Source of the DNA: Larkinella humicola
Lineage (GTDB): Bacteria > Bacteroidota > Bacteroidia > Cytophagales > Spirosomataceae
DNA: 64,000 nucleotides
Direction: 5' to 3'
Assembly: GCF_008727875.1 (NCBI RefSeq)
Contig: NZ_VTWS01000002.1
Span: 868,001 to 932,000 of the forward strand
Of the stretch, positions 17,990 to 59,642 are shown piece after piece. The notes under the pieces are model-generated. The model did not search any database. It was not told the origin of the DNA and saw only the letters and a program-made list of their open reading frames with translations. The position numbers and the translations under genes were made by a program. Each line of letters begins with the position of its first letter. The first letter of the stretch is position 1.

Positions 17990-18070
17990 AAGAGTAAAGA
18001 AAGAAGGCAGGAGAGGAATAGGGAGAAATTGTCCACCTGTATTCCTCTCCTGCCTTCTTTCTTTACTCTT
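17990..18070. repeat. heptad-armed gene-end hairpin (perfect 31-bp arms)
   Basis: Arms 17990-18020 and 18040-18070 are perfectly complementary. The purine-rich arm reads as 7-bp units of the AAGAGTA/AAGAAAG type. The right arm contains the recX stop codon at 18063-18065 and its last codons. Confidence 0.85.
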
Positions 18071-18524
18071 TACTCTCCTCAATAACCGCCCACACCATCT
18101 CGCTTTCGTAGCCTTTGCTGATGGCGTAGCGGACCAGTTTCTGCTTCAATACCAGTGGGCTTTCGCCCTGGAGACTGCGCTTCTTTTTTTCGAGTAAATC
18201 GATCAGCGTCTGGCGGTAATCGTCGGGTTCAATTTCCTTCATGGCCTGTTCGAGGTTGTAGCCGGTAATGCCGCGCTGCTTGAGGTGTTGCCGGATTTTG
18301 TGCAGCCCCCAGCGTTTCACCCGGAACTTGCTGCCCGCAAACGTTTTGGCAAACCGCTCCTCATTCAGGTAATTCTGTTCGATCAGCCACGCAATCATCT
18401 CCTCAGCCTCATCGCCGAACACCTCCCACTCACCGAGTCGTTCACGGACTTCCCGCTGGGTTCGTTCCTGATAAGCGCAAAACGAGGCTGCCCGGCGCAG
18501 AATGTCTTTTGTTTGGTCGGTCAT
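18063..18524 (-). CDS. recX: RecX family regulator of RecA
   Basis: A 153-residue all-helical protein with three helical repeats, including QREVRERLGEWEVF, EMIAWLIEQNYLNEERFAKTFA and KIRQHLKQRGI. RecX binds RecA filaments and modulates recombination. recA is not in this window. Its last codons (SKE and stop) lie inside the arm of a long hairpin, so the tail sequence is set by that repeat. Confidence 0.88.
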   Translation of the reverse strand: MTDQTKDILRRAASFCAYQERTQREVRERLGEWEVFGDEAEEMIAWLIEQNYLNEERFAKTFAGSKFRVKRWGLHKIRQHLKQRGITGYNLEQAMKEIEPDDYRQTLIDLLEKKKRSLQGESPLVLKQKLVRYAISKGYESEMVWAVIEESKE

Positions 18525-18572
18525 TTTTGGGAAGAAAGACGTAAGCGTAGAGACAAAAGAACATCCCGGCCC

Positions 18573-19193
18573 TTAGTGTTTGTTCCCGGCGAGTTTTAAG
18601 TGGATAGCGATTTCGGGCAGAATGTATTGCGCATCGGGTAAAGCGGGATCCGCGCTGTACGTCATGCCCCATTGGGTGCGGTCCACCTTGAGCGTGGCTT
18701 CCACGGCCAACTGATTGTCTTTCAAGGCAATTTTCGCAGGAAAGTTCACCGGATGGGTCTTGCCCAGCATCGTCAGACTGCCATTCACCCGGTAATTGGC
18801 CCCGGCCACGCCTTCTCCACCCGCATAAGGTTCCAGGCTGGTGATGGTGTAGGTAATCGACGGATGCAACGCCATGTTGAAGAAATCGGCACTTTGAAGA
18901 TGGTGTACCAACACCGGTTTCAGCGTATCGGGCAAACTGGTGCTGACGATGGACGAAACCGGAATCGTGAACGAGCCGCCGGTTACTTTCCCGTCTTTCA
19001 CCGTCAGCGCATCGCTCGTCACGGCAATGGAGCCTTCTTCAAAATAACCGGTTCGCAGACTGCCTTTCCACACGGCGACGGACGTTTTTTCGTCAAGCTG
19101 GTACTGCTCCTGCGACGGATCTAAATGGTCTTTTGTGCAATTCAACAGAAAGGACGACAAGGCAATGGCGCAAAATAAGCGTACTTTTTTCAT
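18573..19193 (-). CDS. YceI-like lipoprotein
   Basis: A 206-residue lipoprotein (FLLNCTKD, Cys19). The body has the YceI lipocalin-like pattern: SVAVWKGSLRTGYFEEGSI, GGSFTIPVSSI, VNGSLTMLGKTHPV and a C-terminal DRTQWGMTY. YceI-fold proteins bind isoprenoid-type lipids in a beta-barrel. It lies 56 bp downstream of a cytochrome c gene on the same strand, a pairing seen elsewhere that may link it to quinones or electron transfer; that link is inference. Confidence 0.85.
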   Translation of the reverse strand: MKKVRLFCAIALSSFLLNCTKDHLDPSQEQYQLDEKTSVAVWKGSLRTGYFEEGSIAVTSDALTVKDGKVTGGSFTIPVSSIVSTSLPDTLKPVLVHHLQSADFFNMALHPSITYTITSLEPYAGGEGVAGANYRVNGSLTMLGKTHPVNFPAKIALKDNQLAVEATLKVDRTQWGMTYSADPALPDAQYILPEIAIHLKLAGNKH

Positions 19194-19249
19194 GGTGTAT
19201 TCGTTGTTTTTGACTTAAAAATTAGATTTAGAACGCGGATTTTTCGAAC

Positions 19250-19843
19250 TCAGGGCGCGGGCGGAATCGGGGCGGGTACGGCATTGGAAACCGGTTTGAG
19301 CGATTTCAGATAGGCAAAAACCGCCTTCATGTCCGCATCGGTCATCCCGGCATAGTTCGGCCACGGCATCGGCGGCAGCAAGGGTCGGCCGCTGTCCAGC
19401 CCTTTGGATTTCCCCTGCCGCATGGCTTTGTTGAACTGCTCCTCCGACCAGTTGCCGATTCCGGTGGCATCCGGCGTTAGGTTGGCCGCAAACGACACGC
19501 CCCAGGGGCCGATGAAGGCGGTATTCTGCCCATTGAACAGCACCCATTGACCCGACTTAACCAGATTTTTGTCGTACGAACCCAGCGGTTGAGCGCTGTT
19601 GTAACCGGACAGAAAGCGGTCCGGATCGGGTGCGGGACCCCGGGCTGTCATTTTCTTGGGCGCGTGGCAATCCGCACAGCCCATAATCGTCACCAGGTAT
19701 TCGCCCCGTTTGACCAGCTCGCCCTGGGTTGGTTTTTTGGGTACCAGAACCGGACTGAATTCCGGTTGGGGGGCGTTATGCGGTTGGGTAAAGGCACAGG
19801 CAAGCCCGATGGCGGCTGTAGCCGCCAGATAAATCCATCTCAT
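19250..19843 (-). CDS. monoheme cytochrome c, exported
   Basis: A 197-residue protein with an N-terminal signal (possible lipobox around Cys16) and one heme site CADCH at 56-60. A Met in PPMPWPNYAGM is the likely sixth ligand. The FDNLTPDATGIG-like stretch NLTPDATGIGNWSEEQF is typical of cytochromes that accompany dehydrogenases. The Pro-rich tail is short. It probably carries electrons in the periplasm; the partner is not encoded here. Upstream of the YceI lipoprotein in the same direction. Confidence 0.88.
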   Translation of the reverse strand: MRWIYLAATAAIGLACAFTQPHNAPQPEFSPVLVPKKPTQGELVKRGEYLVTIMGCADCHAPKKMTARGPAPDPDRFLSGYNSAQPLGSYDKNLVKSGQWVLFNGQNTAFIGPWGVSFAANLTPDATGIGNWSEEQFNKAMRQGKSKGLDSGRPLLPPMPWPNYAGMTDADMKAVFAYLKSLKPVSNAVPAPIPPAP

Positions 19844-19878
19844 GGTGTGTTTGGTTGTAGTGAAAAAAAGACCCCTGT

Positions 19879-19902
19879 GGTCTGCCGGATTCCCGGCAGA
19901 CC
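19879..19902. terminator. hairpin between the cytochrome c and AraC genes
   Basis: GGTCTGCCGG pairs with CCGGCAGACC over a 4-nt loop. On the minus strand a T-run follows about 10 bases later, so it may end AraC gene transcription. Confidence 0.6.
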
Positions 19903-19971
19903 GTCATTGAAACGGTAAAAAAGTGAACGAATAAAACCGGCAGCGTCTACCAAAAACCGGAATCAGATGCC

Positions 19972-20817
19972 TTAGGCATGGGTCCGGATCAGTTGCCGCC
20001 CCGGAACCCGATAATAGTGGCCCTGATCATTAAACACCATCGTCGGGGCGTCATTGGTAAACAGTCTGAATTCCCGGATAAAATGGGCCTGGTCCGAATA
20101 GCCAAACGTGTGCGAAACATCCAGCCAGTTGGGGAGCGTCGTTTCCTGCTGGAACGACTCGTAGGCATTCCGGAAGCGAATGATCCGCTGGTACATCTTG
20201 GGCGTGGTGCCGTATTTGTCTTTAAAACTGCGTTCCAACTGCCGCTTGCTCACGTATAGATGGGTACTCAGATCTTCGATCGACAGGTTTCCTTTCGCTT
20301 TCCGGATCAGCCGGGTGGCTTCGAACACGTAGTTGCGTTCGGCTTTCAGATTCCGGAGTTGCCCCAGCAGAAACGTCTCCGCTGCGCTGACCACCGCCTG
20401 GATATCCGGCAAACCGTAGACGCTGTCGACCAGGCGGTTCATGCGTTTTCCGAAGAGACTTTCCAGATCCGTGAAATTATTGAACAGCGATGCGCCCGGC
20501 ACTTTGAACAGTTGCGGCAGGCTCTCCGGTTTGAGCTGAATACCGAATTTGCGGGTCGTTCCCACCGACTTCCACTGCACGGCATCCTGGTAAAGCCCCG
20601 CAAAAAACGCCTGCGGAAGCTTTTGCCACTGGTTATCAAACAACGCATAGGCGCGGTTATCGTCCAGGTGCATGATCAGTTCCAATGTTCCGAAAGGCAG
20701 GCAACGTTGCAGGGGCGACTCTTCATTACCGCTGGTTTCAAAATGATGCAGCCAGTAACATTCAACGAAAGGTTGCAGCGCGGCCGACGGTTTAAATTCC
20801 TGATACCATGTATTCAT
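19972..20817 (-). CDS. AraC family transcriptional regulator
   Basis: A 281-residue regulator. The N-terminal 160 residues form a sensor domain that begins with FVECYWLHHFE, as in AraC proteins with a DUF6597-type N-terminus. The C-terminal 100 residues hold two helix-turn-helix units (LSIEDLSTHLYVSKRQLERSFKD and LDVSHTFGYSDQAHFIREF). Ligand and targets are unknown. It stands alone, with a hairpin on its 3' side. Confidence 0.88.
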   Translation of the reverse strand: MNTWYQEFKPSAALQPFVECYWLHHFETSGNEESPLQRCLPFGTLELIMHLDDNRAYALFDNQWQKLPQAFFAGLYQDAVQWKSVGTTRKFGIQLKPESLPQLFKVPGASLFNNFTDLESLFGKRMNRLVDSVYGLPDIQAVVSAAETFLLGQLRNLKAERNYVFEATRLIRKAKGNLSIEDLSTHLYVSKRQLERSFKDKYGTTPKMYQRIIRFRNAYESFQQETTLPNWLDVSHTFGYSDQAHFIREFRLFTNDAPTMVFNDQGHYYRVPGRQLIRTHA

Positions 20818-20950
20818 TCCTGTTCAATCGTAGTGTTGTTGCGAATTGTGCCGTAAAAGTAAAGCCCCAATCGGTTCCGGTATTGAAAAAATGCGACATT
20901 TTCGCAACCGGTCACACCCCTGAATGTATTTTTCTTTCGAGCCCGACGGG

Positions 20951-20982
20951 CAAAAAAAATGGCCGAAGAGATCTCCGGCCAT
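20951..20982 (-). terminator. rho-independent terminator after the RraA-like gene
   Basis: ATGGCCG pairs with CGGCCAT (20959-20965 with 20976-20982) around the palindrome GAGATCTC. On the minus strand an eight-T run follows directly. It sits 26 bp after the stop at 21008. Confidence 0.75.
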
Positions 20983-21007
20983 CGTACGTATCGATTGAAA
21001 TAACAAT

Positions 21008-21940
21008 TTACCAGGTTCGTTTGCTCATGACTTTGTCCAGCTCCGGCCGGGTCATGGCGCCCAGCTCGGGATGTTGCCCCAGCCATTTCAGGAATTCCGT
21101 CTTGATTTCGTCGGTCCACTGGCTGTCGATCTGGCCGGTGGTGTAGCGGTTTGATTTCACCATCTCGAAGCCAAACTGATCTTTGCGGGTCACAAATTCG
21201 CAGGTAACAATCACCTGCTCGGCCATGTGCGCCGGTACGAACAGAATGCCTTCGCGCTGGGCAATCACCAGATCGCCCGGCAACACCATCGTGCCACCCA
21301 TCCGAATCGGTGTATTGAGTCCCATCAACACCATTTCTTCCAGAAACGACGGGTGGAAGTCCCGCACAAAAGCGTTGAATCCCTTGATGTTCTGCAATTC
21401 CTGCAAGTCGCGGGCGGCTCCGTTGAAGACGACGCCGTTGCCGGTTTTGCTGAAAATGGCGTTCCCCAACGTCGCCCCCACGAGCGTTCCTCCGCCGATT
21501 TTCCCAAAACCGTCGGCCACGTACACATCACCCTTCGTCAGCGTTTCAATGGGCCAGGTGTTGGTATTTCCCTTGCGACCCTGTTTGGTGGTTCCGCGCT
21601 CCTTGATGTTTTTCTCCACATCCGGTCGGCTAGGCATAAACATGGCCGTTACGGCCCGGCCCACGACAATCACGTCGTCGTGGATGAATTTCCAGCCACC
21701 CTCAAACTGGTTCGTGTAGCCTTCGTTTTTCAAAACCGTCCAGGCATCGTCGATTCCGATTTTTTTAGCCCGTTCCACGAGGGCATCCGGAATTTTAGGG
21801 CGTCCGTCGGGAAACCGTTCCCCCTTCCACTCCGACGTCAAAAACGTCAATTCTTCCTTCGGAATGGTTTGGGCAACCAACGAATGCGCGATAGATACGA
21901 GGGCAAGCAACGAAGCTAAAACGGTAACTCTGGATTTCAT
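21008..21940 (-). CDS. exported RraA-family protein (aldolase-like), copy 2
   Basis: A 310-residue protein with a cleavable signal (ends near SLVAQ). The body has the RraA/HMG-aldolase fold signature GDVYVADGFGKIGGGTLVG, then GVVFNGAARDLQEL with the Arg-Asp used for pyruvate and metal binding in aldolase members. About 60 residues beyond the core are present at each end. It follows a paralogue of equal length on the same strand, with a long hairpin between them. An exported sugar-acid aldolase is the favoured role; an RNase E inhibitor role is unlikely for a secreted protein. Confidence 0.8.
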   Translation of the reverse strand: MKSRVTVLASLLALVSIAHSLVAQTIPKEELTFLTSEWKGERFPDGRPKIPDALVERAKKIGIDDAWTVLKNEGYTNQFEGGWKFIHDDVIVVGRAVTAMFMPSRPDVEKNIKERGTTKQGRKGNTNTWPIETLTKGDVYVADGFGKIGGGTLVGATLGNAIFSKTGNGVVFNGAARDLQELQNIKGFNAFVRDFHPSFLEEMVLMGLNTPIRMGGTMVLPGDLVIAQREGILFVPAHMAEQVIVTCEFVTRKDQFGFEMVKSNRYTTGQIDSQWTDEIKTEFLKWLGQHPELGAMTRPELDKVMSKRTW

Positions 21941-21959
21941 ACGGGATCAATTAATCTAT

Positions 21960-22057
21960 AAACAATATCAAATGTTAAATGAGTAATATTAAATGTAAAA
22001 GTGCTGGATTGAAAACTACTTTTACATTTAATATTACTCATTTAACATTTATTGTTT
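21960..22057. repeat. heptad-armed hairpin between the RraA paralogues
   Basis: Arms 21971-22002 and 22018-22049 match perfectly over 32 nt with a 15-nt loop; pairing continues outward to 21960 and 22057 after a 3-nt bulge. The left arm is a row of 7-bp units such as AATGTTA, AATGAGT and AATATTA. Confidence 0.85.
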
Positions 22058-22066
22058 CCTTTCTTT

Positions 22067-22999
22067 TCAATGTTCTTTCGCCAGATAGGCGTCGATGTCT
22101 TTCTGGGTAATCGCTAGTTTTTTGGGGTATTTACCCACCCAGGCTCTGAATTCATCTTTGATCTTGGCCGACCAGTCGCCGTGAATCTCGCCCGAGGGGT
22201 ATTTTCCCTGCTGCAAAAGTACACGTTCAAATTCATCCCGCAAGGCCGTCATCTCCGAAGCCGACACCAGCCCTTCGACGAGGTGCGCCGGAATGAACAC
22301 CACGCCATATTCGTTCGCAAACACGACATCGCCCGGAAAAACCGTCACTTCACCGATGCGAATCGGCGCATTGATGGACGTCGGGGTCATGTCTTTGATG
22401 TATGACGGATCGTGCCCTTTCACCCAGGCGTTGAACCCCTTGGTGTCTTTTAATTCCTGCATGTCCCGAACCGACCCGTAGAAAATCACGCCCTTCCCGG
22501 TTTTGCCGTAGATCGCGTTGCCGAGGCTCGAACCAATCAGGGTTCCGTCTTTAATTTTTCCGTAGCCGTCGGCCACATACACATCGCCTTTGGTCAGAAT
22601 ATCGATCGGCCAGATGTTGATACCGCCTTTTTGCGACCGCCCTTCGGCTTTGCCCTGCTTCCTGACCAGGCTGTCGAGGTCGGGCCGGGTTGGCATAAAC
22701 TGCGCCGTGACCACCCGCCCGGTCATGGTTTCGCCGGGTTTGAGAATGACCCAGTTTTTCTCGACCTGATTGCGGTAGCCTTTGTTGCCCAGGTAGCCCC
22801 AGATTTGCTCCAGCGTACAGTTTTGCAGCCGCTCCAGAACCAGTTCCGGTACATTCGGCCGACCGTCGGGAAGACGTTCCCCTTTCCAGTTCGACGTTAA
22901 GGCGGTAACCTGCTCAACCGATGAGCCAATCCGCTGGGCCTGGGCCATCAGATTTCCCGAAAGGGCCATTGCCAGTACTACGAGTGTTCTCTTTATCAT
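22067..22999 (-). CDS. exported RraA-family protein (aldolase-like), copy 1
   Basis: A 310-residue paralogue of the downstream gene, with its own signal peptide (ends near LMAQAQ). The core motif GDVYVADGYGKIKDGTLIG and GVIFYGSVRDMQEL is kept, so the Arg-Asp pair is intact. It also shares the N-terminal block SNWKGERLPDGRPNVP. Divergent from an exported enolase-superfamily enzyme 279 bp away. An aldol cleavage of a keto-acid in the periplasm is inferred, not shown. Confidence 0.8.
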   Translation of the reverse strand: MIKRTLVVLAMALSGNLMAQAQRIGSSVEQVTALTSNWKGERLPDGRPNVPELVLERLQNCTLEQIWGYLGNKGYRNQVEKNWVILKPGETMTGRVVTAQFMPTRPDLDSLVRKQGKAEGRSQKGGINIWPIDILTKGDVYVADGYGKIKDGTLIGSSLGNAIYGKTGKGVIFYGSVRDMQELKDTKGFNAWVKGHDPSYIKDMTPTSINAPIRIGEVTVFPGDVVFANEYGVVFIPAHLVEGLVSASEMTALRDEFERVLLQQGKYPSGEIHGDWSAKIKDEFRAWVGKYPKKLAITQKDIDAYLAKEH

Positions 23000-23278
23000 C
23001 GCTTTTTAAGGGTTGCCGGTCTGCAAAACTGCAAACAGCAGTTGCCGCATCCGGAAAGATTAAGGAATCAGAAAAGTCAAAAAGGTCTACTCATAAAGAC
23101 AGGAGGTTGGGTAAAATACTGACCTAAGCGGCTGGTGTAAAAAAATAGGCTACCAAAACGAAAAAATGAGGTTTTTCATTAACTTTCTCAATAAATTGAA
23201 TTATATCCAGACTGAAATTTGCTTTTCTATGTAAATACCGATTGAATGAAATAGTAGTACCTAAATCCGGTTAATCGC

Positions 23279-24751
23279 ATGAAAAAAATTCAACACTTAC
23301 TTGATTTATTGAAGAAGTATCCGGCACCGACAGCTGCCGAACCGCGTCCAGGAGGTGCGTCTTCCGGCGTCGACCGGCGTGGTTTTCTGCGCAACTCGGC
23401 TCTGGGTGGCCTGTCGATGGGAATGCTTTTTGATGGGAGACCGGAGCGCGAGCTGGAGTTCATCACCCAGAAAGTAAAGCGCGAATCGAAACCGGCGGAT
23501 CTCAAGATCACCGACATGCGCATTGCAGTTTTGCAGGGCGTTCCTTTTTCGAGCCCTATCATCCGGATCGATACCAACCAGGGGCTGGTGGGCTGGGGTG
23601 AAGTGCGTGACGGTGCCAGTGCCAACTACGCGCTCATGCTGAAAAGTCGCATTCTGGGAAAAAACCCGTGCAATGTCGAGCAGATTTTTAAACAGATTAA
23701 GCAATTTGGGAATCATGGCCGGGCTGCCGGGGGCGTATGCGGGGTCGAAATGGCCCTGTGGGATCTGGCGGGCAAAGCCTATAACGTGCCGGCTTACCAG
23801 TTGCTGGGTGGTAAATACCGGGATTACATCCGGCTCTACGCCGATACGCCCGAAGGCAAGGACTACGACGAATTTGCCAAACACATGGTCCGGCGCCGGG
23901 ATCAGGGCTATACGTTCCTGAAGATGGACTTCGGCATCGGGATGATCGCCGATACGCCGGGGATGCTGGTGGGTTCTAAAAACTGGAACGTCAAGCAGCA
24001 GTGGAACGATGGAAAACCGGGGCTGATGGGCAATTATGCGCAGACCAAACACCCGTTTACCCGCATTCAGGTGACGAAAAAGGGCATCGATGCTCTGGCA
24101 CTGCACGTGAGCAAAGTTCGGGATATTGTGGGCTACGACACACCACTATCCGCCGACCACTTCGGACACTTTGACGTCAATACTGCCATTCAGATTGGCA
24201 AAGCCATGGAACCGTTCCGGCTGGCGTGGCTCGAAGACCTGGTGCCCTGGTTCTATACCGATCAGTGGAAACAAATCTCGGATGCCATCGATACGCCCAC
24301 GCTGACCGGTGAGGATATTTTCGCCAAGGAAGAATTCATCAAGCTCATCGATGCCAAAGCCGTCGACATGATCCACCCGGATCTGGCTTCGTCGGGCGGT
24401 TTGCTGGAGACGAAAAAAATCGGGGATTACGCCGAAGAAGCCGGCATTCCGATGGCGATGCACTTTGCCGGTTCGCCAATCTGCATGATGGCCAACATTC
24501 ACTGCGCGGCTGCTACCGAAAATTTCGTGGCGCTGGAACACCACGGTGTCGATGTGGACGGCTGGGAAGACATTGTAACCGGGATTAAACCAATCGTTGA
24601 GAAAGGCTTCGTGAAAGTACCCGACAAACCGGGTCTGGGCGTTGAGCTCAACGAAGAAGTTGCCAAGAAATTCCTCCGGAAAGGCGCAACCTGGTTTGCC
24701 CCCACCGATAGCTGGAACACCCGCGATTCGTCGGACCGGGATTGGAGTTAA
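23279..24751 (+). CDS. mandelate racemase/muconate lactonizing family enzyme, Tat-exported
   Basis: A 490-residue enolase-superfamily enzyme. RRGFLRN at 33-39, followed by a hydrophobic stretch, looks like a twin-arginine signal. The barrel shows K215-x-D217 (FLKMDFG), metal ligands D293 (SADHF), E319 (WLED) and E345 (GED), and H395 in AMHFAGSP. The arrangement suits a sugar-acid dehydratase (galactonate/mannonate type), but the exact substrate is not readable. Divergent from two exported RraA-like genes that could cleave a keto-deoxy product. Confidence 0.85.
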   Translation: MKKIQHLLDLLKKYPAPTAAEPRPGGASSGVDRRGFLRNSALGGLSMGMLFDGRPERELEFITQKVKRESKPADLKITDMRIAVLQGVPFSSPIIRIDTNQGLVGWGEVRDGASANYALMLKSRILGKNPCNVEQIFKQIKQFGNHGRAAGGVCGVEMALWDLAGKAYNVPAYQLLGGKYRDYIRLYADTPEGKDYDEFAKHMVRRRDQGYTFLKMDFGIGMIADTPGMLVGSKNWNVKQQWNDGKPGLMGNYAQTKHPFTRIQVTKKGIDALALHVSKVRDIVGYDTPLSADHFGHFDVNTAIQIGKAMEPFRLAWLEDLVPWFYTDQWKQISDAIDTPTLTGEDIFAKEEFIKLIDAKAVDMIHPDLASSGGLLETKKIGDYAEEAGIPMAMHFAGSPICMMANIHCAAATENFVALEHHGVDVDGWEDIVTGIKPIVEKGFVKVPDKPGLGVELNEEVAKKFLRKGATWFAPTDSWNTRDSSDRDWS

Positions 24752-24753
24752 AA

Positions 24754-24845
24754 GAATTAAGAGTTAAGAGTTAAGAGTTGGCTGACGCAAGCAGAAAACA
24801 AACGCGTCAGCCAACTCTTAATTCTTAACTCTTAACTCATAATTC
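24754..24845. repeat. heptad-armed gene-end hairpin with GGCTGACGC core
   Basis: The left arm (24754-24788) has five 7-bp units and the right arm (24804-24845) six. They pair if one GAATTAA unit is skipped. The apex is GGCTGACGC with GCGTCAGCC. The right arm runs into the DUF1684 gene and supplies its last nine residues. Confidence 0.85.
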
Positions 24846-26989: not shown

Positions 26990-27010
26990 GATCACAAAAA
27001 GCTTAGTAGA

Positions 27011-28024: not shown

Positions 28025-28889
28025 GTTTCCGAAAAAAGCGCGCTTTATTACCAAAATCATATGGTAATAATTACTCAAAAGAAAACCGTTAGTATGCCAA
28101 CCGGTTTCCCAAAAACCGTCCTTTATTGTCTGGGATAATTCTAAAATCCGGTTCAAATAAGATGAACTAGTATGTTATTATGTGGCCAAATAATTCAAAT
28201 CAGTAACTTATTGAAATTCACCGTTCCCCTTTTTCCGTAAACTAAGGTTGGGTAGGTCTTATAAAGCCTGACAAAATTTGTTCAGGAGTTAACGAGCGTC
28301 GGATGTTCTTATTGTTTGTATGGGTATAAAATCATTTTTATTACGCGGTTTCAGCGTATAAATGTCGGTTGCAATCGGTTGCAACCGACATTTATACGCT
28401 GAATGGAGAGGTAAAAGGAGAGGATGGTGGTCAAAAACCGGCAGGTTTCCTGATTTTTGACGGTTCCGGGTCTTCACTCCTTCTATCGCTTTGGGGTCTT
28501 CGGTATGGCCCCGCACTCCTTTCGGAAAATGGAACCGGTCAGCGTCCCAACGGTTCTCATGTGGCGAACCTTGTGCCGCAAAAAAGCCACGCTTTTTCAT
28601 CTGATTATCAAGCCATAAACAACGAAAGTCTGACTAATCCGACTGCCGTCGTCCCCTCTGAAACCGAACAAAGTTTCCCGGCCCGATCGGCGTCACTGAC
28701 CACCGTATAACGCCCCCGCGGGCTGCTTTCCAAAAGATCTGCAGAAAAAGGACTCGAATCCGAAGCGTCCATCCCGTCTTCACAGGCCGTGTTAATTTTG
28801 AAACACAGCCCTTTCGCCCCCGTTTTCTCCTTGTATTTCTGTGAGAATAAGTGTTATTTTGCGGGTCAAATTTTTGCGTAAAACTAACA
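28025..28889. other. 865-bp stretch without a recognised gene
   Basis: The first 260 bp are AT-rich with nothing recognisable. A perfect 25-bp hairpin stands at 28350-28403. From there to about 28710 frames are open on both strands (28289-28600 minus, 28369-28710 plus), but neither product resembles a known family and both use the hairpin as N- or C-terminal coding. A decayed gene is possible. The ppiD promoter is expected in the last 80 bp. Confidence 0.5.
28350..28403. repeat. perfect 25-bp hairpin with TCGG loop
   Basis: Arms 28350-28374 and 28379-28403 are perfectly complementary and enclose only four bases. No T-run follows on either strand and no gene ends nearby. Confidence 0.8.
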
Positions 28890-31052: not shown

Positions 31053-31057
31053 GTTGT

Positions 31058-33778: not shown

Positions 33779-33870
33779 GGTTCACGGTTTTCCGTATTCG
33801 GTTTACGGTGGCTGACGTGAGAATACGAATGCGTCAGCCACCGTAAACCGAATACGGAAAACCGTGAACC
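33779..33870. repeat. heptad-armed hairpin with GGCTGACG core (perfect 39-bp arms)
   Basis: The 40-nt left arm (33779-33818) and right arm (33831-33870) differ at only the innermost base and enclose 12 nt. The units are of the GGTTCAC, GGTTTTC and GGTTTAC type. It begins 5 bp after the nrnA stop. Confidence 0.9.
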
Positions 33871-35426: not shown

Positions 35427-35513
35427 ATGGGAACGCGGATTTGCCGGATGGAAGGGATTTAAACTCATTTATCTGTTTTTTATCCGTTCCATCCGCTAAA
35501 TCCGCGTTCCCAT
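35427..35513. repeat. gene-end palindrome between ndk and nth
   Basis: Arms 35427-35458 and 35482-35513 pair over 32 nt with three mismatches. The right arm holds the nth stop codon and encodes its last five residues (MGTRI). Confidence 0.8.
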
Positions 35514-36166: not shown

Positions 36167-36259
36167 CTCCGCTTAACTCTTTTTATCTCTGCTTAACTCC
36201 GCGAAACAATTTTTAAACTATTTCGCGGAGTTAAGCAGAATAAAAAGAGTTAAGCGGAG
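36167..36259. repeat. long hairpin upstream of nth
   Basis: Arms of 41 and 39 nt (36167-36207 and 36221-36259) pair with one small bulge and one mismatch around a 13-nt loop. Units of TTAACTC recur, though 7-bp phasing is weak. It lies 17 bp before the nth start and after the sigma operon. Confidence 0.8.
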
Positions 36260-36267
36260 AAAACAGA

Positions 36268-36302
36268 AACCCGTCAGCCAGATGGATTCAGGCTGACGGG
36301 TT
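36268..36302 (-). terminator. terminator of the sigma operon, sharing the GGCTGACG core
   Basis: ACCCGTCAGCC pairs with GGCTGACGGGT over an 11-nt loop. The stop codon of the small gene (36288-36290) is in the loop, so the arm encodes its last residues (NPSA). Confidence 0.75.
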
Positions 36303-36524
36303 TGCCGCGTAATTTCTCGAATAATTCAGGATATTTTGAACGGTGCGCTCGGCCGGTTTGCGTTCGATTTTATTCATCAAACACTTGATTTCGAGCGTAT
36401 CTAAATAGAAGCTCATCAATTCCGGTTCTGCCATGAGGGCGTCTTCGATCAGGAGATTTTCTTCGGTGGAAGTCTCTTCGTAGACATACCGGATTACGTC
36501 ATCGTTGGTAAAAATTTGTATCAT
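36288..36524 (-). CDS. small acidic protein co-encoded with an ECF sigma factor
   Basis: A 78-residue acidic, helical protein with no membrane segment. It overlaps the sigma gene by 26 bp and is surely co-translated with it. Similar short proteins follow this sigma factor in Cytophagales. It might modulate the sigma factor, but no anti-sigma zinc motif (HxxxCxxC) is present. Function is unknown. Confidence 0.75.
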   Translation of the reverse strand: MIQIFTNDDVIRYVYEETSTEENLLIEDALMAEPELMSFYLDTLEIKCLMNKIERKPAERTVQNILNYSRNYAANPSA

Positions 36525-40074: not shown

Positions 40075-40162
40075 GAATGAAGAGTTAAGAGTTAAGAATT
40101 AAAAATTAAAAGTAGGCTGACGCGTAAAATACTTTTAATTTTTAACTCTTGACTCTTCATTC
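40075..40162. repeat. heptad-armed hairpin with apical GGCTGACGC
   Basis: The left arm (40075-40114) is five full 7-bp units plus five bases; the right arm (40130-40162) is exactly 7 bp shorter. They pair perfectly except one base if one GAATTAA unit is looped out. GGCTGACGC occurs once in the loop. It lies just 3' of the thioredoxin-like gene. Confidence 0.85.
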
Positions 40163-41080: not shown

Positions 41081-41392
41081 ATGTATGCAATCGTAGAGAT
41101 CGCAGGGCAGCAATTTAAAGTTGAAAAGGGCCGATACGTCTATACCCACCGGTTGGAAGGCGACACGGACGCTGCACTTGTGTTCGACAAGGTACTACTT
41201 GTCGATAATGACGGGACTATTTCGGTAGGCGCCCCGACCGTCGAAGGCGCCCAGGTTTCCGGCAAAATTCTGGAACACCTGAAAGGCGAGAAAGTAATCG
41301 TCTTTAAAAAGAAACGTCGGAAAGGCTACAAGAAAAAAAATGGCCACCGTCAGTATCTGACCAAAGTATTAATCGAAGACATAACTGTATAA
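41081..41392 (+). CDS. rplU: 50S ribosomal protein L21
   Basis: A 103-residue protein starting MYAIVEIAGQQFKV. The basic C-terminal block KKKRRKGYKKKNGHRQ binds 23S rRNA. It is followed by rpmA, the usual L21-L27 pair, with an unusual 115-bp spacer filled by heptad repeats. Confidence 0.97.
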   Translation: MYAIVEIAGQQFKVEKGRYVYTHRLEGDTDAALVFDKVLLVDNDGTISVGAPTVEGAQVSGKILEHLKGEKVIVFKKKRRKGYKKKNGHRQYLTKVLIEDITV

Positions 41393-41395: not shown

Positions 41396-41495
41396 TTTTC
41401 GGTTCCCGGTTTTCGGTTTTCGGTTGGTTGACCCGTGCTTGTCTCGGATGTATTAGCTAACCAGAAACTGTAAACCATAAACCGTAAACCGTAAA
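41396..41495. repeat. two opposing heptad arrays between rplU and rpmA
   Basis: The left array (41396-41430) has TTTTCGG-type units and the right (41461-41495) CCGTAAA-type units. They are near-complementary but with a systematic mismatch in each unit, so this copy is less perfect. The array ends 12 bp before the rpmA start. Confidence 0.7.
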
Positions 41496-41507: not shown

Positions 41508-41816
41508 ATGGCACACAAGAAAGGTGTAGGTAGTTCGAAGAACGGCCGCGACTCGATGAGCAAACGCTTGGGTGTGAAACTGTTCGGTGGTCAGTCGGCC
41601 ATTGCCGGTAACATCATCGTTCGTCAACGCGGCACCAAGCATCACCCCGACAAAAACGTCGGCATCGGTCGCGATCACACGCTGTTTGCGTTGGTCGATG
41701 GCTCCGTACAGTTTCGCAAAGGCAAAGGTGGTCGTTCCTTCGTGAGCATCATCACATCAGCCCCCGCGGTTGAAGCGGCTCCGGCAACGGAAGTAGCCGA
41801 AGCTCCGGCCGCTTAA
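41508..41816 (+). CDS. rpmA: 50S ribosomal protein L27
   Basis: A 102-residue protein: [20 protein letters not shown] at the start, then [15 protein letters not shown]. The N-terminus is already in mature form. The C-terminal 20 residues are an Ala/Pro/Glu-rich extension beyond the standard core. Terminator follows. Confidence 0.97.
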
Positions 41817-42573: not shown

Positions 42574-42686
42574 GAGTGAAGAATTATGAGTTAAGAATGA
42601 AGAGTTGGCTAACGCACGTGTATTCAGCTCGCGTCAGCCAACTCTTCATTCCTAACTCATAACTTTTAACTTTTAACTCTTCACTT
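42574..42686. repeat. heptad-armed hairpin with GGCTAACGC/GCGTCAGCC core
   Basis: The left arm has six 7-bp units (42574-42615), the right eight (42631-42686), a difference of exactly two units. The inner 32 nt pair with two mismatches, one of them in the core. The right arm ends 3 bp before the next start codon. Confidence 0.85.
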
Positions 42687-50702: not shown

Positions 50703-50710
50703 CGTCCGCA

Positions 50711-50734: not shown

Positions 50735-50747
50735 CGCACGGTTTTTA

Positions 50748-52820: not shown

Positions 52821-53066
52821 TTTCAACATGCTTTCATTTCGCTTCAAAGTTCTGACTTAAACAATAGGCGTCTGTTGGAGGGGTAGTATGGTTGCAAAGA
52901 CCTAAACCGGCGAAAAGAGAACCGATCCGGAACAAACGTCATCAAACACCGTCAGCTAAAAATGCCCAATCAGGCAATAAGTTATCATCTGAATTGAAAA
53001 AAAAGGCATAAATGGTAACAAAATCACATTTACCCCAATCCTTGTATATTTACCCAAAAAAATCGG

Positions 53067-53993: not shown

Positions 53994-54005
53994 TGAAAAA
54001 AGCCG

Positions 54006-54929
54006 TCACCGGATTAAATTGGCAAACTGCTCGATCAGCGTCTTCGGAGCGCCGATTCGTTGCTGATACGATTGGTAAAAAGCCCGGTCGATGGGCCGAA
54101 ATTTCTCGGCTTGCCGGGCTTCCGACCAGCCCGAACGCAGCGCCACCAACACAGCGTGGTTTTCGGTGTGCAACGCTAACAGAACGTCCGTGATCTTTTT
54201 CTGCAACGAAACGTCCAGCGTGTTTTTCAGCAAGACTGGCCCCAGCGGTATCTCCTCCGACTCCCAGACCATTTTAATCCGGTTTTTCAGTGTCGAATCT
54301 TTCCGAACGGCTTTGTGGTACTCTTCACTGCCAAAAGCCGCCAGATCGGTTTTCCGCTCCAGCACCTGCGTCAATCCGTTGGCGTGGGTTTTACTGAACG
54401 CGACCGCCTTAAACTGACGCTCGGGTTCCGGTAGGCCGTTGGCGTACAGATAAGCCCGTGGAATGAGGTTGCCGGAGGTGGAGGTTTCGCTCACAAAGGT
54501 CATGCGATACTGAGCAGCCTGTTTCGTCAGATCGGCCATTCGGTTGACCGGCAACGATGCGTGGGCAATGAGGGCGGTTTTGTAGTTGTCGCGCACACCG
54601 GGCGGCACCTGCAATGCCGCTACCGGCGTATAGGGGCTGGCCCCCCGGTTAATGAGCAGCAAGTACCCAAACGTACTGATGAGGGCTAGATCGACTTCAC
54701 CGGCCTCGATACCGGCAATGAACCCGGCCACATTCTCATAACTTCTGGTCTGAACCGGCATCCCCAGTTTCTGACTCAGGACATCGGCCAGGGGCTGAAT
54801 ATTGCCCAGGCGGTTGTTGTCGGCGTAAGTATACGTGGCCAGTGTTAGTTTCGGCGTCTGGCAAAACGCCGGAAAAGCAAACCATTGAATCAGGACGATC
54901 AGCCGGATTCGGAGCAAAACAGGACTCAT
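54006..54929 (-). CDS. PhnD-like periplasmic phosphate/phosphonate-binding protein
   Basis: A 307-residue protein; the start at 54929 (MSPVLLRIRLIV) begins the signal peptide. The binding-protein fold has the family stretches AGFIAGIEAGEVDLALISTFGYLL and VSETSTSGNLIPRAYLYANG. PhnD proteins bind phosphonate or phosphite for an ABC transporter, but no permease or ATPase gene is present, so another role such as sensing is possible. Convergent with the preceding gene. Confidence 0.82.
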   Translation of the reverse strand: MSPVLLRIRLIVLIQWFAFPAFCQTPKLTLATYTYADNNRLGNIQPLADVLSQKLGMPVQTRSYENVAGFIAGIEAGEVDLALISTFGYLLLINRGASPYTPVAALQVPPGVRDNYKTALIAHASLPVNRMADLTKQAAQYRMTFVSETSTSGNLIPRAYLYANGLPEPERQFKAVAFSKTHANGLTQVLERKTDLAAFGSEEYHKAVRKDSTLKNRIKMVWESEEIPLGPVLLKNTLDVSLQKKITDVLLALHTENHAVLVALRSGWSEARQAEKFRPIDRAFYQSYQQRIGAPKTLIEQFANLIR

Positions 54930-55022
54930 ACAGCGTGGATGGGTTGAAATGAAACCGCGAAAGTAGTCCAAGCAATCCAAACGGGCTGACAACGATTTAG
55001 CAAACGGACATGAAAACCGGTT

Positions 55023-55694
55023 TTACTTCAACTGATTCTGCAACCGTTTGGCCAGCGTGTGGCTCTTGAATGAACTACTGAGCTTGTCGTACATCGCGCG
55101 GGCTTCGGCTTTGGGAAACTGGTTCCAGTACCAGTTCAGCAAATACAGGCTCAGTTGCGAATCAGGGTTGGCCTTGATCTGCTCGGCCACTTTCTGGTTT
55201 TGTTCGGCCTTCAGCCGCTTTTCTTCCCGCGCCACCCGGTTTGCAATGGCCGTATCACCGGTCGAACGCTGGCGGTCGTTGTACAAATCCATCAGCACTT
55301 CGCGGTAGGGGCGGTCTACTTCATTCTGAAATTTCAGCCAGCGGTCGGTCAGTGGTGAGCCTTTTACCTCGGCTTCGCGAAACGCGTCGCGGGTGCCTTC
55401 GAGGGTCAGGTCGCCGTCCCAGATAAATTGCACCTGCCCCGGCAAACCGGCCGCCACAACGTTGTAGAAATCAATTTCAGGAATGGTGCGGCTGAACGTA
55501 AACTTGCCATCGACCGCCCGGGTCGAATCCACGATCAACGGCTTGCTGTTGGCATTATCGGTTTTTTTGAGGTAAACCATAACCGTACCCAGTCCGTTGA
55601 CATTGCCCTGCAGCCTGACGTTTTTCTGGGCCTGAACCGACGTAAAAAATCCAAGACTGAGGAGAAGGACGAGACTATAAATACTTTTTTTCAT
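55023..55694 (-). CDS. DUF4369 domain protein without thioredoxin domain
   Basis: A 223-residue exported protein (signal ends near VQAQ). The first 110 residues have the DUF4369 beta-domain (VRLQGNVNGLGTVMVYLKKTD; DGKFTFSRTIPEIDFYNVV; FIWDGDLTLEGTRD), usually the N-terminal half of a TlpA/ResA-type thioredoxin. The rest is helical and charged, and no CxxC is found. It looks like a thioredoxin-less variant; function is unknown. Confidence 0.8.
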   Translation of the reverse strand: MKKSIYSLVLLLSLGFFTSVQAQKNVRLQGNVNGLGTVMVYLKKTDNANSKPLIVDSTRAVDGKFTFSRTIPEIDFYNVVAAGLPGQVQFIWDGDLTLEGTRDAFREAEVKGSPLTDRWLKFQNEVDRPYREVLMDLYNDRQRSTGDTAIANRVAREEKRLKAEQNQKVAEQIKANPDSQLSLYLLNWYWNQFPKAEARAMYDKLSSSFKSHTLAKRLQNQLK

Positions 55695-55891
55695 GACACG
55701 ATGGTGAGGCTCTTTTAAGATTTGCCGTTAAATAAAACGTTTTGATACCCAGCATGTAACCGGGTATATTACAAAGAATAAACAACAAAAATACCCTTTC
55801 TGTCTGCGTTTGGTGTCCGTAACCGGCAGTAAACTTATCCTCTGGCCTTTTCAAATCAAAACGGTATCGTCAACCTCTACCTTTCTGCTCC

Positions 55892-57244
55892 ATGGATGCC
55901 CTTTCCCCCACCGTCTCGTTGACTTCCGAATCTCCCGGCTACGTCGCCGTTCAGCCCGTTGCCAAAGCCGACCGCATTCAAACCATCGACGTCATTCGTG
56001 GTTTTGCGCTGCTCGGCATTCTGATGATGAACATCCCGTACTTTGGCCTGTCGCACACGGCTACCCCCCGGTTTTTCACGGCCCCGGTCGATTCACCGGA
56101 TTTTAAGACCTTCCTGACGGTTTCGGTGATTTTTGAAGGAACCATGCGGGCCTTGTTTTCGATGTTGTTCGGCGCGGGGATGTTGCTGTTTATGGCCAAG
56201 AAAGACACCCGAACCGATGGCTACGGCATGCCGGATTACTACTACCGGCGGTTGTTCTGGCTCATCGTGTTCGGCATGTTCAACGCGTTTGTGCTGCTCT
56301 GGCCCGGCGACATTCTGTATACTTACGGCGTTTGCGGTTTATTTCTGTTTCCGTTTCGGAACATGAAGCCCCGGACGCATCTCCTGATCGCGTTTTTCTG
56401 CGTGGCGGTTTTGGGCGTAAAAGGATTTTTCAAGGCGATGGAAACCCAGGAGAATCGGGAAGGCTACCTCAAAGCCATTCAACTGGAGAAACAGAAAAAA
56501 CCGCTGACTGACGAACTCAAAAAAGCCAAAGAAGGCTGGCTGGCTGTGGAAAAAAACACGAAATACGACCAGAAGAAAGAGGACGAAATTAACAAAACCA
56601 TGCAGGGCGATTACGGCACGATTTTCAAAGCGTATCTGCCGCTGAATACCAAATTTGAGTCGGTTAAATTCTACCAGAATTTCATCTGGGACGCCTGGGC
56701 GCTGATGTTTCTCGGAATGGCGCTGTTCAAATGGGGCTTCTTTTCCAATCAACTGCCCACCCGAACGTACGTCCTGACCTTGCTTGCCGGTTATGGCATC
56801 GGCCTATCGCTGGGCTGGTTGGCCTTCTGGGATGGCGTCGCCTGGTTCACGAACCCCGGCAAAGTGATCGATGCTGATTCGTTTCCGTTCCAGGCTTTCT
56901 ACCAGATTCGCCGGGCCGCTTCCGCCCTCGGACATGCCAGTTTGCTGTTGTTGATCTACCGCTCGGGCATCGTTCCCTGGCTGATGAAAGCCCTGGCCAA
57001 CGTCGGGCAAATGGCGTTCACCAACTACCTGATGCAGAGCATCATCTGCACCCTGTTTTTCTACGGATACGGTTTTGGCTACTTCGGCAAGCTGTCGTAT
57101 TATGAACTTTACTTCGTCGTAGCCGCCGTGTGGTTGTTTCAATTCATCTTCTCGGCCCTCTGGCTCCGGTTCTTCCGCTTCGGCCCCTTCGAATGGCTCT
57201 GGCGATCGCTGACGTACTGGAAACGGCAGCCCATGCAGGGTTGA
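55892..57244 (+). CDS. DUF418 membrane protein
   Basis: A 450-residue protein with about nine to ten membrane segments. It begins RIQTIDVIRGFALLGILMMNIPYF, the typical DUF418/acyltransferase-like first helix. A soluble charged loop lies around residues 180-260 (KQKKPLTDELKKAKEGW...). C-terminal MAFTNYLMQSIICTLFFYG is the DUF418 signature. No function is established for the family. A perfect 40-bp-arm hairpin starts 5 bp after the stop. Confidence 0.88.
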   Translation: MDALSPTVSLTSESPGYVAVQPVAKADRIQTIDVIRGFALLGILMMNIPYFGLSHTATPRFFTAPVDSPDFKTFLTVSVIFEGTMRALFSMLFGAGMLLFMAKKDTRTDGYGMPDYYYRRLFWLIVFGMFNAFVLLWPGDILYTYGVCGLFLFPFRNMKPRTHLLIAFFCVAVLGVKGFFKAMETQENREGYLKAIQLEKQKKPLTDELKKAKEGWLAVEKNTKYDQKKEDEINKTMQGDYGTIFKAYLPLNTKFESVKFYQNFIWDAWALMFLGMALFKWGFFSNQLPTRTYVLTLLAGYGIGLSLGWLAFWDGVAWFTNPGKVIDADSFPFQAFYQIRRAASALGHASLLLLIYRSGIVPWLMKALANVGQMAFTNYLMQSIICTLFFYGYGFGYFGKLSYYELYFVVAAVWLFQFIFSALWLRFFRFGPFEWLWRSLTYWKRQPMQG

Positions 57245-57248
57245 AGGG

Positions 57249-57341
57249 AATTTCAAATGAGAAATGATGAATGTTAAATGTAAAAGTGTTTCAAGTCCGA
57301 CCACTTTTACATTTAACATTCATCATTTCTCATTTGAAATT
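57249..57341. repeat. heptad-armed hairpin (perfect 40-bp arms)
   Basis: Arms 57249-57288 and 57302-57341 pair perfectly over 40 nt with a 13-nt loop. Units read AATTTCA, AATGAGA, AATGATG, AATGTTA and AATGTAA. It lies between the convergent DUF418 and GNAT genes. Confidence 0.9.
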
Positions 57342-57355
57342 TAAAATTCCTTTTT

Positions 57356-57661
57356 TCACAATCCGTCTTCTTCCTTCGTCCAAACATCCGCATAGTCTTT
57401 CGGATGCCGCTTGAACTGGAGGTGTACGTATGGACAAAGCGGAATGACTTTCAGGCGGTTTTCCCGCGCATACGCCACCATCGCATCCAGCATCTGTTTG
57501 GCGTAGCCCTTTCCTTCGGCTTCCGGGACCACTTCCGTGTGATAAACCGTCAGGTTACCATCGGCGATATTGACCACCATTTCGCCAATTTTAACGCCCT
57601 CTTCGTAGAGGTAAAAAGCGCCGGGACTTTTCTGGTCCAGGTCTAGTTTGATTTCTGCCAT
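57356..57661 (-). CDS. small GNAT-type N-acetyltransferase
   Basis: A 101-residue protein starting MAEIKLDLDQ (57661). It has the minimal GNAT layout of the YidJ/GCN5-like group: GAFYLYEEGVKIGEMVV, HTEVVPEAEGKGYAKQMLDAMV (acetyl-CoA loop) and VIPLCPYVHLQFKRHPK. Substrate is unknown. It is monocistronic. Confidence 0.87.
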   Translation of the reverse strand: MAEIKLDLDQKSPGAFYLYEEGVKIGEMVVNIADGNLTVYHTEVVPEAEGKGYAKQMLDAMVAYARENRLKVIPLCPYVHLQFKRHPKDYADVWTKEEDGL

Positions 57662-57823
57662 CGTATGGTACGGTAAACGAATGCTGCACCGGTCGTTGAA
57701 AAGTAGGGCGGCCGGTTTGCGGAAATATAGGAATAAATCGAATTCCGATCGCTTTTCTGGGCGAAATTCCACCCCGCTTCTTATTATTTGATAACTTACC
57801 CACCGAGCCTACGCAATCACGGT

Positions 57824-59581
57824 ATGAAATCAAAAATGGAACGTTTGACGACGCTTTTCTTTACCGGCTATGCCCTGTGTCTGCTCTTTTCCACGCCGGG
57901 ACTGGCGCAAACGGGGAAAGGTGATCGCATCAGCGGTTTGAACTTCGCTACCCGAAGTCCGGTTGTGGCCAGCCACGGCATGGTGGCGACGGCTCATCCC
58001 CTGGCGTCGCAAATCGGCCTCGACATTCTGAAACAGGGCGGAACTGCCGTCGACGCAGCCATTGCGGCCAACGCGGCCCTGGGCGTGCTGGAACCCAACA
58101 ACTGCGGCATCGGTGGCGATTTATTCGCCATCGTCTGGTCGGCCAAAGACCGGAAACTGTATGGCCTGAACGCCAGCGGCCGGTCGCCCCGGGGACTAAC
58201 ATCCGACAAATTGAAGGCGGTTTTGGGCGATAGCAAGACGATTCCGCTCTATGGGCCCCTATCGGTTTCGGTGCCGGGAACCGTAGACGGCTGGTTCGAA
58301 TTGCACCGGCGGTTTGGCAAACTCACCATGAAAACCCTGCTGGCGCCCGGCATTCGCTACGCCCGCGAAGGTGCTCCCGTTCCATCGGTCATTGCGTATT
58401 CGTGGCAGGAGGCCGTTCGGCGGCTGGAAGCGAGCCGGTCAACGATTCAGGAATTCGATAACTTCCGACGAACCTTTCTGATCAATCAGTTACCTCCCCA
58501 AGAAGGACAAATCTTCAAAAACGCGGATTTGGCGGCTACCTACGAAAAGATTGCCAACGGCGGTCGGGATGCTTTTTACAAAGGGGCGATTGCATCAGTC
58601 ATCGATCGGTACGCCCAAAAAACCGGGCTATACCTGCGCAAAGAAGATCTGGCTAGCCACAAAAGTACCTGGGTCGATCCGGTTTCGGTCAACTACCGGG
58701 GTTTCGATGTTTTTGAACTGCCGCCCAACGGCCAGGGGATCGCCGTGCTCCAGATGCTGAACATGCTGGAAGCGTATGATTTACAGAAAATGGGACATAA
58801 CAGCGCGGAGTATCTGCACGTATTGACGGAAGTCAAAAAGCTGGTGTTTGAAGACCGCGCCCGGTTTTACGCAGATCCGGACTTCGCCAAAATACCGCTA
58901 TCCTGGTTGCTATCGAAGGACTATGCGGCCCGGCGTCGGAAATTAATCGATCCGAAACAGGCCGCCAAACGCGTCGATTCCGATGCGCTGCCGCTGCGGG
59001 AGGGCGACACAACCTACCTCACCGTGGCCGACGACGAAGGCAATATGGTGTCGTTGATTCAAAGCAACATGCTCGAATTTGGCAGCGGGCTGGTGCCCGA
59101 CGGGTTGGGATTTGTCTTTCACAACCGGGGAACGAGTTTCAGCCTGCAAACCGGCCATGCCAACGAATACAAACCGGGCAAACGTCCCTTCAACACCATC
59201 ATCCCGGCATTTGTCCTGAAAGACGGAAAACCGTTCCTGAGTTTTGGCGTCATGGGCGGAGCCATGCAACCGCAGGGCCACGTTCAGATTCTGTGTAATC
59301 TCCTGGATTTCGGCATGAACGTGCAGGAAGCGGGCGACGCGGCCCGGTTCAGCCACTCCGGCAGCAGCGAACCCATTGGCACCCGAATGCTGGACGGCGG
59401 TCACCTGGCGCTGGAAAGCGGTATTTCAAACGAAGTGCGCGAGGAACTGGAGCGCAGGGGCCACCACCTGATTGCCAAGGATTTCTTCGGTGGCTATCAG
59501 GCCATCCTATTCGATACCACGCAAAAAGTCTATCACGGGGCCTCAGAAATGCGGAAAGATGGGCAAGCGGTGGGGTACTAA
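57824..59581 (+). CDS. ggt: gamma-glutamyltransferase
   Basis: A 585-residue exported enzyme; the start at 57824 (MKSKMERLTT) begins a signal peptide ending near GLAQ. It should self-cleave before Thr396 (GDTTYLTVAD), the nucleophile of the small subunit; the usual TTH is TTY here. SFGVMGGAMQPQGHVQ and ELGSGL-type FGSGLVPDG complete the site. It hydrolyses glutathione and other gamma-glutamyl compounds in the periplasm. Confidence 0.93.
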   Translation: MKSKMERLTTLFFTGYALCLLFSTPGLAQTGKGDRISGLNFATRSPVVASHGMVATAHPLASQIGLDILKQGGTAVDAAIAANAALGVLEPNNCGIGGDLFAIVWSAKDRKLYGLNASGRSPRGLTSDKLKAVLGDSKTIPLYGPLSVSVPGTVDGWFELHRRFGKLTMKTLLAPGIRYAREGAPVPSVIAYSWQEAVRRLEASRSTIQEFDNFRRTFLINQLPPQEGQIFKNADLAATYEKIANGGRDAFYKGAIASVIDRYAQKTGLYLRKEDLASHKSTWVDPVSVNYRGFDVFELPPNGQGIAVLQMLNMLEAYDLQKMGHNSAEYLHVLTEVKKLVFEDRARFYADPDFAKIPLSWLLSKDYAARRRKLIDPKQAAKRVDSDALPLREGDTTYLTVADDEGNMVSLIQSNMLEFGSGLVPDGLGFVFHNRGTSFSLQTGHANEYKPGKRPFNTIIPAFVLKDGKPFLSFGVMGGAMQPQGHVQILCNLLDFGMNVQEAGDAARFSHSGSSEPIGTRMLDGGHLALESGISNEVREELERRGHHLIAKDFFGGYQAILFDTTQKVYHGASEMRKDGQAVGY

Positions 59582-59582
59582 T

Positions 59583-59642
59583 GAGTTATGAGTGAAGAGT
59601 TAAGAATTAGCTGACGCATCCATAACTCATAACTCTTCACTC
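59583..59642. repeat. heptad-armed hairpin with AGCTGACGC core
   Basis: The left arm has four GAGTTAT/GAGTGAA-type units plus CTGACGC; the right has three units. They pair imperfectly. The right end overlaps the beta-lactamase stop codon (59641-59643). Confidence 0.7.

Follow-up and report, generated by a model that had tools for sequence, protein, structure and literature searches.

The short tandemly repeated repetitive (STRR) heptanucleotides of filamentous cyanobacteria are 7-nt units in tandem arrays, and hairpin arms are, to our knowledge, not one of their defining features. In a first-pass annotation of a 64-kb stretch of the Larkinella humicola genome (G000:C13:868001-932000, hereafter the window; genome size 7.86 Mb; family Spirosomataceae, order Cytophagales), a family of gene-end hairpins with arms of imperfect 7-bp repeats was likened to them, by description rather than by sequence. 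The GGGAATC heptamers of Xanthomonas, which form inverted pairs near stop codons, are a closer match (PMC4692102; all papers cited here enter as excerpts). Both these repeats (GGGAATC/GGGANTN) and those of Nostoc (GGGGA(C/T)T) are imperfect and intergenic, often lie no more than 50 bp from a stop codon, are rare between divergent genes and vary in length and sequence between species. Convergent pairs occur as inverted repeats in 70 and 75 cases in two Xanthomonas genomes and in few cases in Nostoc, and transcripts start or stop more often at quadruplex-forming heptamer repeats than at controls (PMC4692102, which also mentions heptanucleotides of Calothrix).

The Larkinella hairpins are gene-end heptamer inverted repeats of the kind known from Xanthomonas, with which they share imperfect 7-nt units (8/9 loci), proximity to stop codons (34/40) and scarcity between divergent genes (4/40). 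In contrast to the G-rich Xanthomonas word GGGANTN with its quadruplex potential, their words are of the GAGTTAA, AATGTTA, CGGTTTA and GATGAAC types. Their many words set them apart, as do tips common to many copies, switched words and flipped loops; the excerpted account of Xanthomonas and Nostoc describes no shared tip, compensated arms, word switching or loop inversion (PMC4692102). The TAACTGA repeats, also present in five Bacteroidetes, are intergenic direct heptamer arrays mostly just upstream of starts, the main genome having a single indirect repeat (PMC4679880), whereas the Larkinella elements have other words and inverted arms and lie after stops. Repetitive extragenic palindromic (REP) elements are dispersed palindromes, 20-40 bp long, that carry an unpaired tag, GTAG or CGTC (PMC3733652). 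The Larkinella elements, in contrast, measure ~60-105 nt, have heptad arms and are found beside none of the seven Y1_Tnp matches in the genome. Finally, polymerase template switching between inverted repeats (quasipalindromes) homogenises arms and inverts loops, as observed here; the excerpted papers concern RNA genes and yeast coding DNA, and describe a process rather than an element family (PMC8794818, PMC8604942). The listings from searches of open-licence literature contained no earlier description from Cytophagales, Larkinella included, in agreement with the first-pass annotation.

Strong inverted repeats are present at all nine window loci named beforehand (Table 1), which were examined by direct reading and by an inverted-repeat search, and their predicted fold energies range from -26.6 to -78.3 kcal/mol. 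Self-similarity at lag 7, scored per arm against arm shuffles, is significant in both arms at eight loci (p 0.0002 to 0.016); the claim of 7-bp units thus holds for these eight and fails for the ninth, at 17990. Arms span 23-51 nt in the best alignments, shorter than the 28-56 nt initially given, and their pairing, described as near-perfect, is imperfect at 41396 and 59583. Arm differences of whole units had been proposed for 24754, 40075 and 42574; the best alignments there contain gaps of 0-2 nt and none of 7, with the reservation that repetitive arms allow other alignments. When the two halves (with the loop) of 47 heptad hairpins from a broader collection were aligned, 5/8 gaps of at least 5 nt had a length divisible by 7, compared with 1/14 such gaps in non-heptad inverted repeats. 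The TAA of the first GAGTTAA in the 24745 element is the stop codon (24749-24751) of ORF 23279-24751 (+).

The 7-nt signal is also seen in genome samples. Four segments, two of L. humicola and two of Larkinella sp. C7 (264, 400, 280 and 200 kb), contain 44, 70, 35 and 31 inverted repeats with arms of at least 20 nt, and one locally shuffled copy of each contains none. At lag 7 the arms match themselves, on average, at 0.432, 0.402, 0.493 and 0.454, as against 0.235 to 0.319 at all remaining lags in the range 3-12. Among arms with a best-lag match of at least 0.55, lag 7 is best in 14/19, 24/28, 17/24 and 12/18. With up to one mismatch, GAGTTAAGAGTTAAG gives 141 overlapping matches in the L. 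humicola genome and its backward control none; it is present in eight of the nine Larkinella genomes, L. soli being the exception. This set comprises L. humicola (G000), L. arboricola (G001), a further Larkinella genome (G002), L. knui (G003), L. punicea (G004), L. rosea (G005), L. soli (G006), Larkinella sp. C7 (G007) and L. terrae (G008). The search for 7-bp periodicity, made in genome samples, and the search for similar elements in relatives, both suggested by the first-pass annotation, were therefore positive, and the gene-end hairpin family it described is seen in genome samples and relatives alike.

Heptad hairpins (arm of at least 18 nt, lag-7 match of at least 0.5) were placed relative to genes in 664 kb of L. 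humicola with a simple gene caller of our own. Of 41 such hairpins, one lies in a gene and 40 are intergenic, 22 of them between tandem, 14 between convergent and 4 between divergent genes. The median distance to the stop codon is 5.5 nt (36 hairpins with an adjoining stop), and 34 of the 40 lie within 30 nt. Random placement of 85-nt segments in gaps of at least 85 nt brings 14.7% to within 30 nt of a stop codon and puts 35% between divergent genes, so that both stop proximity and divergent scarcity depart from expectation (binomial p 7e-23 and 3e-4). The hairpins are dispersed gene-end elements that probably act at mRNA 3′ ends, a role suggested by their place, predicted strength and retention in close relatives.

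Dispersal is most directly seen in the tips. One tip family, GGCTGACGC..GCGTCAGCC, has 41 exact copies in L. humicola and a second, AATGTAAAAGT..ACTTTTACATT, has 35; in the 49 nt upstream of the tip, lag 7 is best for 29 of 30 copies (the first 15 per kind, of 76 in all). The GGCTGACGC tip occurs in 38 of 200 sampled genomes of the family (L. humicola included), which represent 4 of 36 genera; a class-level sample of 118 further genomes, only 3 of them from the same order, lacks it. Within the genus it is absent from L. arboricola, L. soli and G002. The AATGTAAAAGT tip is found in five of nine Larkinella genomes (35, 45, 32, 3 and 21 exact copies) and absent in four. Further, one other genus (g9) combines the GGCTGACGC tip with different heptad words such as ATGTCCA (L199 18638-18740), and in G033, of another genus of the family, arms of heptads and 8-nt words (GGTTGAAT type) carry GCTCCGC or GCTTCGC tips (L192-L195); the GCTTCGC tip also occurs in L. 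punicea at the site orthologous to C13:744286. Some genomes from other genera (G033, G074, G152, G158, G167, G176 and G058) are also rich in the GAGTTAA word. In G058 its matches are 29 forward and 2 reverse, and two stretches examined there hold no heptad hairpin formed from it. Among named loci, 43 in number and at most 20.6 kb long, heptad hairpins (arm of at least 16 nt, lag-7 match of at least 0.5) occur in 13/21 loci of Larkinella, Fibrisoma and Spirosoma and in 0/22 others.

Flanks were compared for two pairs of copies in L. humicola. At one pair, an 80-nt element is common to both places at 95% identity, with the identical loop oppositely oriented and unrelated flanks (2.5-3 kb compared). 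The other pair, C13:225344 and 230343, sits in homologous flanks and is therefore uninformative on spread. A link to REP-associated tyrosine transposases (RAYT) was looked for at the seven Y1_Tnp matches, and these seven loci of ~3 kb contain no heptad array; the single hairpin at one of them (L057, lag-7 match 0.53) is a nested palindrome. Near a Y1 transposase match, a 135-nt imperfect and internally repetitive inverted repeat was also noted (L053 2158-2496). Clean insertion with target duplication was considered for the heptad elements and was not clear by eye at the few filled and short sites; in another family (gcccctaaatcccc), by contrast, the elements have the look of insertions. A separate hairpin family resembling miniature inverted-repeat transposable elements (MITEs), gcccctaaatcccctaaagggg, with a loop of ~25 nt, lies at window positions 17883-17974, at C13:801789 and 840738 in L. 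humicola and at C45:38412 and 157766 in L. punicea (L161-L170). Its presence varies among Larkinella species, and at two sites (C13:801789 and L. punicea 157766) the flanks show a short duplication by eye.

Orthologous gene ends reveal that hairpins are kept while their words change. The comparison covered about 340 kb each of L. humicola, Larkinella sp. C7 and L. punicea. Of 22 heptad hairpins followed from L. humicola to Larkinella sp. C7, 9 have the same words, 6 score as other words, 4 have no hairpin and 3 no anchor. Towards L. punicea, the 22 divide into 7 with the same words, 9 with other words, 2 without a hairpin, 3 without an anchor and 1 in a long interval. From L. punicea to Larkinella sp. 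C7, 17 hairpins give 10, 4, 1 and 2 in the order of the first comparison. A hairpin is thus present at the orthologous place in 45 of 52 resolved comparisons (in 3 of these 45 the hairpin measured is another, inserted one) and missing in 7. Of the 19 cut-off scores of other words, 12 comparisons at eight sites were accepted on reading as word change (Table 1); four show a reshuffling within one word family (779778 vs Larkinella sp. C7, 901779 vs L. punicea, and L. punicea 20039 and 241246), and in three another hairpin in the interval had been measured (936905, 961329 and 1007263, all vs L. punicea). At the 42574 site, GAGTTAA words in L. humicola correspond to GATGAAC words in L. punicea, L. 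rosea, Larkinella sp. C7 and L. terrae, and at 59583 the GAGTTAA hairpin is replaced by an AATGTTA-type element in Larkinella sp. C7. In L. rosea, the 24754 and 40075 elements have GAACAAT-like words and still the GGCTGACGC tip. Alignment of orthologous intergenic regions, as proposed in the first-pass annotation, hence shows hairpins usually kept among close species with words often changed; that annotation tied unit words to loci, yet a locus can exchange its word and retain a hairpin.

Retention also holds for hairpins of any kind at tandem and convergent gene ends of the window (score at least 13, ordinary terminators included). Compared with pooled Larkinella sp. C7, L. punicea, L. rosea and L. 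terrae, a hairpin is found in both genomes at 32 ends, in one only at 2 and 4, and in neither at 37; divergent gaps scored in the same way hold one in 0/29 cases. Pooled p-values overstate independence here because the comparisons share L. humicola sites. Whole elements do differ between species at C13:792711, 998148 and 1014182, and at C13:792711 the short sites of Larkinella sp. C7 and L. punicea contain a single unit, GGTTTACG or GGTTTACT.

The paired arms change in concert. In 67 orthologous comparisons of hairpins with the same words (26 heptad, 41 other), 1583 of 1766 base pairs are unchanged, 116 changed on one side and 67 on both, of which 61 are compensated Watson-Crick pairs and 6 are other doubles. 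Re-dealing the changes within hairpins yields a mean of 12.8 doubles and a maximum of 24 in 1000 trials, so that the observed number is fivefold in excess. For heptad hairpins alone (733 pairs), 22 double changes, 21 of them compensated, compare with a shuffled mean of 3.9 and maximum of 10. Between L. humicola and Larkinella sp. C7 alone, 23 sites contain 33 compensated doubles, 1 other double, 39 single changes and 563 unchanged pairs. Within the window, the 21970 and 33779 elements each show 3/3 changed pairs compensated relative to Larkinella sp. C7, and the former has the same words in L. punicea and Larkinella sp. C7. Some loops are inverted: of 49 compared, 16 are direct, 9 inverted and 24 unclear, which makes 9 of the 25 readable ones. 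The inversion is perfect at C13:946247 (CGAATAAGAA vs TTCTTATTCG) and at C13:718651, a hairpin with 7 as its best lag that falls short of the heptad cut. The 40075 loop appears inverted by eye relative to L. punicea and is scored as unclear by script.

Taken together, we lean towards several dispersed families of gene-end hairpins with family-specific tips and imperfect 7-nt arms that are kept matched by template switching. In RNA, strong 3′-end stems, mostly without a U-tract, would serve whichever gene reads through them, either in end formation or as a block to 3′ exonucleases. In DNA, hairpin template switching during replication would copy arm from arm, which keeps the match and sometimes flips the loop; units may be gained and lost by slippage in 7-nt steps, and elements would spread to gene ends and replace one another there by some copying route. 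A bolder version, which we regard as speculative and rather unlikely, is a class of transcript ends selected for fold and place and not for sequence. Such ends would be overwritten time and again by other elements of the genome, through template switching that anchors on shared tips and heptad words. One or two rounds of replication would suffice to replace both arms and the loop, the hairpin would rarely be lost, and 7 nt would be the step of the copying enzyme.

Several observations weigh against the template-switching families. Other long hairpins also favour gene ends (48/80 within 30 nt of a stop). Of 50 sense-strand heptad ends, 11 have at least 6 T among the 10 nt that follow and 39 do not; because most heptad ends have no T-tract, these are not textbook terminators. 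In heptad hairpins, single changes (60) exceed doubles (22), so single changes are clearly tolerated, and part of these singles may be unit misregister. The change counts are not independent because one site recurs in up to three comparisons, and selection for pairing alone could explain compensation without template switching. Only 2/9 inverted loops are in heptad-classed hairpins, one of them weak (C13:927587), while 3/9 (C13:715086, 801789 and 885883) belong to a MITE-like family, in which separate insertions of opposite orientation could produce the same picture. Retention is not significant towards the more distant L. knui, L. arboricola, L. soli and G002 (both 13, one only 14 and 6, neither 19; p 0.09). 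Furthermore, dispersal lacks a clear enzyme, given the Y1 transposase loci without heptad arrays, and by eye none of the few filled and short heptad sites shows a clear target duplication.

The most credible alternative, though still a doubtful one, is that the hairpins are selfish or neutral MITE-like repeats without function, which inserted widely and survive only where they harm the cell least, just 3′ of stop codons. The patchy AATGTAAAAGT tip, the near-identical copy with unrelated flanks, the replacement of words at orthologous sites and the presence or absence of elements at C13:792711, 998148 and 1014182 would all fit such insertions. Set against it, hairpin ends are mostly kept in close relatives, with other words too (45/52 for heptads; 32 shared, 6 discordant and 37 empty ends for any hairpin), target duplication is not clear at filled and short sites, and 0/7 Y1 transposase matches adjoin a heptad array. 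Ordinary intrinsic terminators whose stems are repetitive by chance are improbable. They would account for the position directly after stop codons and for the rarity of an additional T-tract terminator at hairpin ends (1/48 heptad gene ends vs 33/316 other gene ends, p 0.065; 6/133 ends with any long inverted repeat vs 28/231, p 0.015), and excerpted work indicates that U-tracts may be dispensable (PMC8355165); the 39/50 ends without a T-tract speak against them, and dispersed families with shared tips are left unexplained. Purely local slippage and fold-back, in which each array grows in place out of a heptad seed and is then mirrored, is very improbable. The single units at the short C13:792711 sites and the one-sided GAGTTAA matches of G058 without a heptad hairpin fit it, but tips common to tens of loci and a GGCTGACGC tip confined to 4/36 genera and 0/118 class genomes need descent by copying.

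The window contains further hairpins outside the heptad class. The ~10-bp words of the two related gene-end hairpins in Table 1 (CGGATT; GCGGAGTTAA/CTCTGATTAA types) also switch between species. At 36267-36303, the GTCAGCC..GGCTGACGG of an ordinary-looking hairpin followed by TTT resembles the GGCTGACGC tip of the heptad hairpins, and a perfect 25-bp hairpin with a 4-nt loop and without heptad periodicity lies at 28350-28403 in an 865-nt gap. Rfam yields 0 matches above gathering score in the window.

Table 1. Hairpins in the window (window positions) and orthologous sites with word change.
Position	Strand	Class	Words, tip and stem	Remarks
17990..18070	.	not heptad	perfect 31-bp purine/pyrimidine hairpin	lag-7 match 0.46, p 0.39 and 0.40
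21970..22050	.	heptad	AATGTTA words, AATGTAAAAGT tip, perfect 33-bp stem	
24745..24840	.	heptad	GAGTTAA words	
24780..24812 (G000:C13:892780-892812)	.	tip of 24745 element	GGCTGACGC - 15-nt loop - GCGTCAGCC	
33779..33870	.	heptad	GGTTTAC words, GGTGGCTGACG tip, perfect 39-bp stem	
35427..35513	.	related gene-end hairpin, not heptad	CGGATT type	lag-7 p 0.52
36167..36259	.	related gene-end hairpin, not heptad	~10-bp words (GCGGAGTTAA type)	lag-7 p 0.83
40075..40162	.	heptad	GAGTTAA/GAATTAA words	GGCTGACGCG one-sided in loop
41396..41500	.	imperfect heptad	CGGTTTT / TAAACCG	between ORFs 41081-41392 and 41508-41816, which we take to be rplU and rpmA on size and order
42574..42672	.	heptad	GAGTTAA words	immediately 3′ of Nfu/NifU gene
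57249..57341	.	heptad	AATGTTA words, AATGTAAAAGTG tip, perfect 40-bp stem	
59583..59645	.	short heptad	GAGTTAA words, half tip GCTGACGCAT	
C13:744286, 812195, 910584, 927587, 936905, 946818, 998148; G004:C45:32452		word-change sites		

By what means long stems keep their pairing as the sequence evolves is still debated as a question (PMC8794818, in the part excerpted), for which bacterial loop flips at fixed places are useful. At the density of 41 heptad hairpins per 664 kb, the whole genome of 7.86 Mb would be expected to contain several hundred. As gene ends are comparable across nine Larkinella genomes, the rate and kind of arm copying become countable, which makes these hairpins a study case for the copying and upkeep of matched arms. 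The preference for heptamers in bacterial tandem repeats and the way transcripts end in Cytophagales are further questions to which they are relevant.

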